In this document: positions 9,889-12,066 of the stretch, piece by piece | How positions within the stretch are numbered: position 1 is the stretch's first letter | Layout of the letters: the number at the start of each line of letters is the position of its first letter | Position numbers and translations under genes: made by a program | NCBI RefSeq assembly: GCF_039851975.1 | Contig: NZ_CP156660.1 | Span: 1,679,035-1,743,034, forward strand | DNA: 64,000 nt | Direction: 5' to 3' | Source of the DNA: Desulfoscipio sp. XC116 | GTDB taxonomy: Bacteria > Bacillota > Desulfotomaculia > Desulfotomaculales > Desulfallaceae | The notes under the pieces: model-generated | The model's database searches: none | Told to the model about the DNA's origin: nothing | The model's input: the letters and a program-made list of their open reading frames with translations, nothing else

Positions 9889-9987
9889 GGGGGTGGATGG
9901 TGCCTGGTGGTGCCCCTGGTCTTCAAAACCAGTCCGCGGGGCGGCGATCCCGTCCCTGGTGAGTTCGATTCTCACACACTCCCGCCA
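9889..9987 (+). tRNA. selC: Selenocysteine tRNA, anticodon TCA, CCA encoded
   Basis: A 99-base tRNA with all selenocysteine-tRNA hallmarks. The acceptor stem is 8 bp long (9889-9896 with 9976-9983; the last pair is G-A), the D arm has a 6-bp stem (GGTGCC twice) closing a 4-base loop, the anticodon loop CTTCAAA places TCA at 9923-9925, a long GC-rich variable arm spans about 9933-9957, and the T arm GTGAG/CTCAC encloses TTCGATT. A G discriminator and CCA follow. It delivers selenocysteine to UGA codons with SelB and is charged through SelA, both encoded at 23.8-27.2 kb. It has its own promoter and terminator. Confidence 0.96.
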
Positions 9988-10026: not shown

Positions 10027-10284
10027 GTTGCCAATAAAGATGGCAACATATTTGACAATATCATTTTTTAGTCCGGTTCTTTCTATTGTATTGTGTTCTG
10101 CAAATAATGCGGCCGGAAGACAATAAATAATCATTGCTAATCTATGCCAGGAAAATCAACTGTTGTGCACATATTGTCATTTTAATGAATAGTATGTTGG
10201 AAAATATTAATATAGATGTTTTGGAATGGTTTTATCTTTTCTAATCCTATTCAGAACAAAAAGGTAAAAAAAGGAGGTTCTCAA

Positions 10285-10395
10285 ATGGCTTATGGCATTG
10301 GCGGCGGTGGATCTTTATTGTGGTTACTGTTATTGCTGGTGTTCTTTCCCTTCTTTGGAATTTTCGGTGCGGCAGGACAAAAAAATAAAAGCTAG
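10285..10395 (+). CDS. 36-residue glycine/leucine membrane peptide
   Basis: A short gene with a perfect AAGGAGG site seven bases before its ATG. It encodes 36 residues: a Gly-rich start (MAYGIGGGG), a hydrophobic segment of about 18 residues from 11 to 30 (LLWLLLLLVFFPFFGIFG) and a charged end QKNKS, so a single membrane span with the C-terminus probably in the cytoplasm. The layout recalls the small YjcZ-type sporulation peptides of Bacillus, but similarity is only architectural. The stop is about 55-90 bases before the hairpin array, and the two may share a transcript. Function unknown. Confidence 0.7.
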   Translation: MAYGIGGGGSLLWLLLLLVFFPFFGIFGAAGQKNKS

Positions 10396-10449
10396 CTTTG
10401 TACGCTAAATGTTGCCACATATTAACAGACATATAATTTTGTTGACCGG

Positions 10450-10815
10450 GCATTATATTAGCGTAAGGTTCGTAATGGCCGAGCCAAGATTATTACAGGG
10501 TCATAAAGGCTCTGTAATAGTCGGCCAAAGGTTATTATCGGGTCGCAAGGCTCGATATTAGCCGGCGGGCAGATCGGTAAGTGTTCCGGCAGGCTATATA
10601 ATAGTCATAAAGATTATTATATGGTCGCAAGGGATGTTTATCGGTCGAGCTAAGATAATTATGGGTGCCGCATGGATAGTGTCTCTTAGCTAATCCTATG
10701 GGTTTGCAGCAGTCGAGAGATTGTTGCAGGCTCATCAGGTATCCATAATTGTCGAGCAAAGATCACTATGGGTGTCGTAATGGTTCATGATAGCCGAAAG
10801 GTTGTCATGAGCTGC
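10450..10815 (+). ncRNA. Tandem-hairpin array, candidate structured RNA
   Basis: About eight units of 40-44 bases, each with an A arm (type GATTATTAnnnnGGTC) and a B arm (type GGCTnnnnTAATAGTC) that pair. Best stems: 10488-10502 with 10508-10522 (15/15, loop ATAAA); 10530-10544 with 10549-10563 (14/15, loop GCAA); 10592-10606 with 10612-10626 (15/15, loop ATAAA); 10698-10714 with 10719-10735 (17/17, loop GAGA); 10738-10753 with 10761-10776 (14/16); 10781-10795 with 10800-10814 (15/15, loop GAAA). Stem sequences differ between units while pairing is kept. Many pairs are G-U, and the loops are GNRA, only when read on the plus strand, so a plus-strand RNA is implied. No coding frame fits. Family not recognised. 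Confidence 0.75.
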
Positions 10816-10865
10816 GCAGATATGCATGGTGGTTGTAGCGTAGGTCATTACGGGCTTGAAAAGAC

Positions 10866-10898
10866 GAAATCCCCTTCTGGTATCAAGAGGGGGATTTC
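10866..10898 (+). other. 9-bp hairpin closing the RNA array
   Basis: GAAATCCCC (10866-10874) pairs perfectly with GGGGATTTC (10890-10898). There is no T run behind it, so it is not a standard terminator; it may be the 3' boundary or another element of the array transcript. From here to 11140 only weaker arm-like pieces are seen (an A-arm-like stretch at 10912-10926, a 10/14 stem at 11051-11082). Confidence 0.45.
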
Positions 10899-11139
10899 TC
10901 CTGTTAGGGATGATAATACTTGGGTCGGGGTGAAATTCTAAAGTACTGGGAAGCAGCCGCTGACTATTCTTTTTCGGGGGTGGTAAAGGCATGAGTGGTA
11001 GTCGGGATGATTGTGCATACCGCGCGAAACTAAAGCATGATACGGCAGGTGTTCATAATTATGTTTTCTGTAATACTGCGCCGGGGAGCATACGTGGTTG
11101 GAATTTTGTGCGTGATTATAACGCCTGGATAAACAGGGA

Positions 11140-12066
11140 TTAATCAAAAATTAATTCATTTTTATACAGTAAACCCACTAAAAAACCGGTTAGGCCTATA
11201 AATAAGTTTATTACGCCAAATATAATATAGATGGTACTGAGCAACCCGGTTTGTAAGGCGGCAATGATTAAAAAAAACAGGCCGAGCAAAGTGAATAACA
11301 AAGCTCTTTTTTTTGAGGCCATTATATTATCCTTGATAGAAAGAGCCATTTCTATGCCTGATATTCGAGTGTCCCCTTCTTCCTGCCATTTTTCCAACGG
11401 AAAAACGGGATGCCGGGTGTGTTTGGCCATGTGCAGTAATCCATGACCGTCAATGAGATGTATTTTAACCCGTCCATGCACCCGCCGGGCTAAACGGCGT
11501 GCTTCATCTGTGTATGAGCCGCTGCTTATAACAATACCTTTTTGAAAATGGGCTTGCTTAATTTCCCGTAGGAAATTTTTAATCTGATTGGCGGTCATCC
11601 GGTGCTCCTCCTCGGTGGGATTTAAGCACATGATGCCAATCTTTTGATTGCGCAGGTTGCCGGAAAGGGCGATGGTCGAGTTTGCACAGTGACTGAACGT
11701 TTTAAGTTTTTCAAAGGGAGCCATACCCTCAAGCAGCTCTTGAACCAGCTGGATAAATTTCTCTTGGGTATCCATGTTCTTGATATTTTGCCGGCATTTG
11801 CGGGCGCTGTACCATATATCTCGATGGGTATTCAGTGCTTTACGGCGGTTGATTTTTATTTTGGTGACTAATATAACTTCGGCTATCATTAGGGGAATGA
11901 TTATCATGTTAGTTATTGTTTGACCCAACGGTAAAAGCTGTACGGCAAAAATTGTGAAGAACCAGGTAAATATTAACGTAAGTACAAAGTCTATAGTCCG
12001 GGCCAGTCGGGTGCGCTCGTCCCGCGGTTGTTTATGCATATAGCGGTGCATGTGGTTGTTAAACAT
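11140..12066 (-). CDS. Membrane protein with Mrr-like restriction-endonuclease fold
   Basis: A 308-residue protein: two membrane spans near residues 25-70, a cytoplasmic middle domain (about 100-235), and two more spans near 250-305. The middle part reads like an Mrr_cat domain (GIMCLNP, then KGIVISSGSYTDEARRLARR and VKIHLIDGHGLLHM). The usual catalytic (D/E)-xK pair is not evident: the strand that should carry QxK reads IGIMCLN, so nuclease activity is doubtful. It stands alone and ends facing the hairpin-array region. A role in DNA-damage or phage response is only a guess. AGGAGG lies 11 bases before the ATG. Confidence 0.65.
   Translation of the reverse strand: MFNNHMHRYMHKQPRDERTRLARTIDFVLTLIFTWFFTIFAVQLLPLGQTITNMIIIPLMIAEVILVTKIKINRRKALNTHRDIWYSARKCRQNIKNMDTQEKFIQLVQELLEGMAPFEKLKTFSHCANSTIALSGNLRNQKIGIMCLNPTEEEHRMTANQIKNFLREIKQAHFQKGIVISSGSYTDEARRLARRVHGRVKIHLIDGHGLLHMAKHTRHPVFPLEKWQEEGDTRISGIEMALSIKDNIMASKKRALLFTLLGLFFLIIAALQTGLLSTIYIIFGVINLFIGLTGFLVGLLYKNELIFD

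Follow-up and report, generated by a model that had tools for sequence, protein, structure and literature searches.

Positions 10450-10815 of the window, by which we mean the whole 64,000-nucleotide stretch of Desulfoscipio sp. XC116 DNA analysed here, had been described from the sequence as a tandem array of covarying hairpins with GNRA loops and as a candidate new structured RNA. The locus raises the question of whether these units are repeats in their own right or parts of one RNA molecule and, in the latter case, when such an RNA would be made and what it might do. Our analysis shows that the stems are real and that they do not constitute an array; they are the arms of a single molecule of ~390 nt closed by a long-range helix, P1. 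The locus probably encodes an undescribed, independently transcribed, forespore-expressed structural non-coding RNA of endospore-forming Bacillota.

Architecture of the RNA

The consensus fold of the homologue alignment contains ten helices, including a 2-bp helix (P1b), around a six-way junction (Table 1). Arms 4, 5 and 6 are built from two helices each, and the only local hairpins are P2, P3, P4b, P5b and P6b. The core measures 342-417 nt across homologues, with a median of 392 nt, and about 70% of it is paired. The long, near-perfect stems noted in the preliminary description are borne out by the window copy, which forms 136 of the 137 consensus pairs; 35 of them are G-U, in line with the earlier estimate of about a quarter. 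Because P1, P4, P5 and P6 pair over long range, the repeat units are arms of one molecule, and the tandem-repeat reading was dropped. The original limits of the region are revised to those of the likely gene, about 10465-10905, with its promoter boxes at 10429-10457.

Table 1. Features of the RNA locus in the window.
Feature	Position	Strand	Evidence
-35 element ACATA, forespore-type (sigma-G/sigma-F-like) promoter	10429-10433	+	[GTA]NATA conserved at constant spacing in 78 upstream regions
-10 element GGGCATTATA	10448-10457	+	consensus GGNCATAATA; ends 8 nt before P1
Predicted transcript, ~440 nt	10465-10905	+	limits set by the promoter and hairpin positions
Conserved RNA core, ten helices, six-way junction	10466-10857	+	consensus fold of homologue alignment
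P1, closes six-way junction	10466-10480 / 10843-10857	+	15 pairs, 99.2% kept, 10 with double changes
P2 hairpin (10489-10521)	10489-10502 / 10508-10521	+	14 pairs, 13 with double changes
P3 hairpin (10530-10563)	10530-10544 / 10549-10563	+	15 pairs, 11 with double changes
Arm 4 (10572-10646)	P4 10572-10587 / 10631-10646; P4b 10592-10606 / 10612-10626	+	31 pairs, 25 with double changes
Arm 5 (10649-10757), GNRA loop on P5b	P5 10649-10669 / 10738-10757; P5b 10704-10714 / 10719-10729	+	30 pairs, 22 with double changes
Arm 5, length-variable segment between P5 and P5b	10670-10703	+	
Arm 6 (10761-10834), GAAA loop on P6b	P6 10761-10776 / 10819-10834; P6b 10781-10795 / 10800-10814	+	30 pairs, 22 with double changes
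Terminator-like hairpin after core	10866-10898	+	14 of 15 pairs; weak T tract in window copy

GNRA loops are conserved at only two of the places where they might be expected from the preliminary description. They are kept at P5b and at P6b, each in 93 of the 95 alignment rows, with GAAA in 90 of 95 at P6b. The other terminal loops are variable, with the GNRA type in 17 (P2), 3 (P3) and 2 (P4b) of the 95 rows; the GTAA at 10777-10780, previously counted among the loops, is part of the internal loop of arm 6 and not a terminal loop. At least 95% conservation is seen in 48 unpaired columns; most of them belong to junction strands or internal loops, or to the GNRA loops at P5b and P6b. The strands between the arms are highly conserved. 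Several junction words are alike in the alignment consensus (GAGCCAAGA, GGCCAAAGG, GAGCTAAGA, GAGCAAAGG), and a model of arm 6 and the 3' strand of P1, termed R1, also matches arm 4 of the same molecules, for example with 65.5 bits in locus L280. Both observations point to an internal duplication of arms, which would explain the ability of neighbouring arms to cross-pair. The repetition in the region comes at least partly from duplicated arms within one RNA. In many homologues, the internal-loop words GUAA and GCAG are found on opposite strands in arms 4 and 6, as if one module were used in both orientations.

Other classes of element were also rejected. The units are only 67-88% alike and their arms pair at long range, which argues against a direct-repeat array of the CRISPR or satellite type. 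A protein gene was dropped as well: the longest stop-free stretch in six frames differs from copy to copy, anywhere between the 40-59 and the 120-139 aa bins.

Folding and covariation

The plus strand of 10441-10915 folds with a predicted energy of -229.3 kcal/mol, compared to -136.6±7.0 kcal/mol in 100 shuffles (z -13.3), against z -2.9 for the minus strand, in agreement with the plus-strand folding proposed at the outset. Alignment A1 comprises 95 homologues, after removal of L040, which repeats L009, and of one fragment of 106 positions. RNAalifold gives 138 pairs for this alignment, 103 of them with double-sided compensatory change; one isolated pair was left out, and all covariation counts refer to the remaining 137.

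Pairing is kept in 98.4% of the 12,943 pair cells (95 homologues, 137 pairs), compared to 88.9% in shuffles, and 1410 cells are doubly changed, against 364.6±24.2 in shuffles and at most 260 in slid controls. None of 500 shuffles reached any of the five covariation measures. When the partner strand is slid by 1-3 columns, pairing falls to 31-42%, and each of the ten helices taken separately is paired in 97.7-99.2% of cells. The covariation that had been read from differences between units thus holds between homologues, with compensatory double changes in 103 of 137 pairs; rather than ignoring the pairing, mutations in homologous loci preserve it. Together with the lack of an Rfam family match (see below), the double changes and the slide controls strongly support the earlier proposal of a new structured RNA on the plus strand.

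The preliminary description also envisaged two mutually exclusive folds, in which an arm pairs with its other neighbour. Such cross-pairing is possible on paper in the window copy, where 14 of 15 pairs can form between 10508-10522 and 10530-10544, but the second fold is not conserved: the alternative pairing is kept in 87.8% of cells versus 87.1% in shuffles, with 4 doubly changed pairs versus 4.3, and has no covariation of its own. A bistable switch built on this pairing was therefore dropped.

Promoter motif and terminator-like hairpin

Upstream of P1, 78 non-redundant copies share a bipartite consensus of a -35 element, [GTA]NATA, a 14-nt gap and a -10 element, GGNCATAATA. Of the 95 rows, 93 remained after two were lost to gaps or contig ends, and 78 after removal of 15 near-duplicates. 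The position of the -10 element relative to P1 predicts a transcript start at about 10465. We take the motif to be similar to the sigma-F/sigma-G consensus sequences, and the promoter resembles, by this likeness, one used by a forespore sigma factor. In C. difficile, promoter recognition by SigF and SigG is reported to be promiscuous, with SASP genes belonging to the set under the control of both (PMC7438776). A scan of 10200-11150 gave no sigma-70-type site on the plus strand.

A matrix derived from the 78 copies was compared with 27 SASP genes, found by text pattern in 30 loci of the same order. Scores of at least 12 bits are reached by 68 of 78 RNAs (the training set), 16 of 27 SASP genes (the other 11 fall below), 5 of 76 other long ORFs and none of 135 shuffles; for at least 14 bits, the corresponding counts are 49/78, 11/27, 0/76 and 0/135. 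The genome to which the window belongs has ACATACTCATTGTTATAAAGGGCACTATA at its SASP site and ACATATAATTTTGTTGACCGGGCATTATA at the RNA. The order-trained matrix also recognizes held-out distant RNAs: 57 of 69 score at least 10 bits and 12 score lower, compared to none of 101 random positions at this level and 3 of 345 shuffles. In 68 of the 69, counting weak sites too, the highest-scoring site has its end 5-14 nt upstream of P1. This set, which includes related genomes, was drawn from 70 loci, namely 19 of 20 from a first batch (L152, a near-copy of L150, was left out) and 51 of 55 from a second, and lost L319, located near a contig end.

The 9-bp hairpin noted earlier at the end of the region is present, and is corrected here to a longer, terminator-like hairpin. 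In all 94 testable homologues (one of the 95 rows had too little downstream DNA), P1 is followed by a hairpin with 9 or more pairs, compared to 22 of 186 random positions, and in 88 of 94 it is accompanied by at least 4 T in the 10-base tail, compared to 6 of 186. A stricter terminator scanner did not flag the plus-strand hairpin of the window copy. The RNA has no fixed neighbour gene: the commonest neighbouring protein family occurs at 11 of 130 distinct RNAs, on the opposite strand.

Distribution and link to sporulation

DNA searches returned matches in 33 of 41 genomes and in 80 of the 113 genomes of the order; a second DNA query, run over the class, again gave 80 of 113. The window's own genome holds three copies (C1:1689475, 3299464 and 3370394). 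The third (L035, 3370394-3370805) is less regular, with 78% identity and 130 of 137 pairs, and is possibly decaying or specialised. Each of the seven genomes of genus g1 has 2-4 matches, some of them fragments, including some neighbouring duplicates (contig C8 of G005), and many genomes of the phylum sample have a single match.

Model R1 and a second model, R2 (P2 and P3), were both built from 46 of the 95 rows. In the order, R1 matches 85 of 113 genomes; in a phylum-wide sample the count is 145 of 398. Its E-values, which like those of R2 are rough, are about 1e-24 at best outside the order and about 5e-4 for the weakest of the 145, the weaker matches being unconfirmed. Whenever more than 40 genomes were searched, filtering was stricter, and a missing match is therefore soft evidence of absence. 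From 79 of the 132 R1-positive genomes outside the order, 82 stronger loci were taken (L131 is among those left out). The independent R2 model matches upstream on the same strand with E <= 1e-6 in 68 of them (20/22 and 48/60 in two batches), at 1e-6 to 1e-5 in three (L286, L322, L323) and at 1e-5 to 1e-3 in four (L292, L299, L301, L304); in seven (L134 and L149 of the first batch; L268, L302, L310, L312 and L324 of the second) it was not matched in place.

A pattern that recovers 82 of the 95 near copies and 17 of the 22 distant ones already known was scanned against 84,980 species and yielded 81 stretches. The carriers include Pelotomaculum, Desulfofundulus, Desulfoscipio, Desulfotruncus, Sporotomaculum, a Moorella sp., Carboxydocella, Fervidicola and Tepidanaerobacteraceae; none of the 81 records is from Bacillus. 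The pattern was found in no viral contig, and phage records and plasmids gave no match to the RNA.

In the phylum sample, R1 matches 140 of 336 spoIVA-positive and 5 of 62 spoIVA-negative genomes (Fisher p = 5e-8, uncorrected for shared ancestry). The five RNA-positive genomes without a spoIVA match, G188, G230, G341, G387 and G434, are 97, 80, 75, 61 and 90% complete, respectively. Within the order, SASP genes are present in 111 of 113 genomes, and the two that lack them (G051, G057) also lack the RNA. All nine genomes of genus g17 (G026, G038, G065-G071) have SASP genes; R1 finds no match in six of them and matches with E-values of 2e-7 to 8e-12 in three. As 196 of the 336 spoIVA-positive genomes likewise give no match, the RNA is not needed for sporulation generally, unless divergent copies were missed.

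Comparison with known RNAs

Large structured RNAs such as OLE, GOLLD, ROOL and raiA have families in Rfam. At gathering score, Rfam 15 finds only a selenocysteine tRNA in the whole window, elsewhere than the RNA, and in 20 of the 93 homologous loci only SSU rRNA and TwoAYGGAY, both outside it. Permissive scans of three copies gave nothing on the RNA that reaches gathering score, so the covariance-model comparison suggested earlier places it in no Rfam family. Among the papers listed by the literature searches, none was recognised as describing this RNA; the excerpt of PMC11109978 makes no mention of Desulfotomaculum, Pelotomaculum or Peptococc-. The RNA class, which matched nothing in Rfam or in this literature, is probably new.

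The closest likenesses are of two general kinds that are already known, ornate RNAs and forespore sRNAs of Bacilli. OLE, 577 nt long in C. acetobutylicum, is a membrane-located homodimer (PMC12286853). Like the present RNA it is large, ornate and standalone, and it comes from anaerobic or extremophilic Bacillota; the present RNA is smaller, has a spore-type promoter and lacks an Rfam match. GOLLD and ROOL are also large structured RNAs, of unknown function, which build RNA-only cages (PMC12286853), but they occur in phages or prophages, often near tRNA islands, whereas the present RNA is smaller and matches no viral, phage or plasmid sequence. The raiA motif RNA (ModT) is likewise a conserved structured RNA of Bacillota, and C. 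difficile sporulates less without it, an effect that runs through c-di-GMP; it differs in being expressed in exponential phase (PMC11706538) and in having an Rfam family.

CsfG and Bvs196 are forespore sRNAs of Bacilli under sigma-F/sigma-G (PMC9147052). Bvs196 is 294 nt long, is reported across Bacillus and is independently transcribed, with a putative terminator and a fold that is both stable and conserved; spores made without it show altered resistance to heat and UV, and it is reported to bind spo0A and sspN-tlp mRNAs (PMC9147052). A sigma-F/sigma-G-type promoter, shared with both, is found here at the motif level only, and the terminator-like hairpin is a further likeness to Bvs196. Bvs196 is shorter than the ~440 nt predicted for the present RNA, and is reported from Bacillus, a genus without a record among the 81 stretches of the pattern scan.

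Proposed role and alternative explanations

Structure, covariation, breadth, promoter motif, terminator-like hairpin and the absence of a fixed neighbour are all read from sequence; from them we infer transcription itself, its forespore timing, action in trans, a scaffold role and any partners. In the proposed mechanism, polymerase carrying a forespore sigma factor (sigma-G, possibly sigma-F too) would start at about 10465, read ~440 nt and stop at the terminator-like hairpin. The RNA would then fold into a closed flower: the 15-bp P1 leads into the six-way junction, from which two simple hairpins and three arms of two helices each emerge, with the conserved GNRA loops capping arms 5 and 6. 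Its own promoter motif and terminator-like hairpin, the lack of a fixed neighbour, and the conserved fold and junctions make it most like a trans-acting RNA of the OLE/ROOL/GOLLD type. Its most likely place of action is the forespore or the stored spore, where it would work in trans as a compact scaffold, either by itself or assembled into a homo-oligomer or with proteins; a switch that controls a neighbouring gene is less likely.

A large conserved structure followed by a 3' terminator-like hairpin is also what a terminator riboswitch, or another cis-regulatory leader of a downstream gene, would present. This is very unlikely here, since no downstream gene is conserved, every helix of one fold is supported while the tested alternative pairing is not, and the hairpin is found in every testable copy. 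Less probable still is a mobile or selfish repeat (MITE, REP-like or array) or a phage RNA of the ROOL/GOLLD sort. The multiple matches, fragments and neighbouring duplicates in genus g1 would fit such an element, but many genomes have one match only, promoter motif and hairpin are conserved around the copies, the RNA pairing, with its many G-U pairs, is under selection, and viral, phage and plasmid sequences gave no match.

An antisense sRNA that pairs in trans with spore mRNAs, with its structure serving mainly for stability, would have a precedent in Bvs196 (PMC9147052) and would suit the forespore-type promoter motif and the RNA's own terminator-like hairpin. We consider it unlikely, as most of the core is paired and its terminal loops are either variable (P2, P3, P4b) or GNRA (P5b, P6b), so that the sequence that is both conserved and single-stranded is mainly in junction strands and internal loops. 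It is also distinctly unlikely that the RNA is a conserved structural RNA of stationary phase or stress, not specific to the forespore, whose promoter only looks forespore-like and belongs to another alternative sigma factor. This would be compatible with the structural part of our explanation; the sigma assignment is by motif, and five genomes of 61-97% completeness carry the RNA and no spoIVA match. However, the same bipartite motif is found at SASP genes of the same genomes, and the RNA is associated with spoIVA.

If the RNA is indeed a forespore-expressed structural RNA, a more specific and frankly tentative picture is possible. It may be an RNA machine or scaffold of many anaerobic Bacillota that is produced in the forespore and retained in the dormant spore. 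Such an RNA, with its duplicated arms arranged about a six-way junction and GNRA loops on two of them, would perhaps form homo-oligomers like OLE, ROOL and GOLLD and aid dormancy, resistance or revival. Bacteria have only a small number of large conserved RNAs, and these are often a sign of biology yet to be discovered. The present one has strong covariation support and is distributed over many families of spore-formers, and its promoter indicates when to look, which makes the role of a structured RNA in the forming or dormant spore directly testable.

Genomic surroundings

The selenocysteine tRNA of the window (Rfam RF01852, 67.1 bits) is encoded on the plus strand at 9889-9983, and the RNA gene follows it after about 480 bases. 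Between the two, an ORF at 10285-10395 (plus strand) encodes a glycine-rich hydrophobic peptide of 36 aa, for which a Pfam search gave no match. A TwoAYGGAY RNA (RF01731, 47.4 bits) is located near another RNA copy, at 1157-1314 of locus L022. In two other genomes (G011:C87 29300-29983 and G013:C6 34670-35341), an RNA copy lies 55-71 nt past a match to a SASP, a spore DNA-binding protein, on the same strand.
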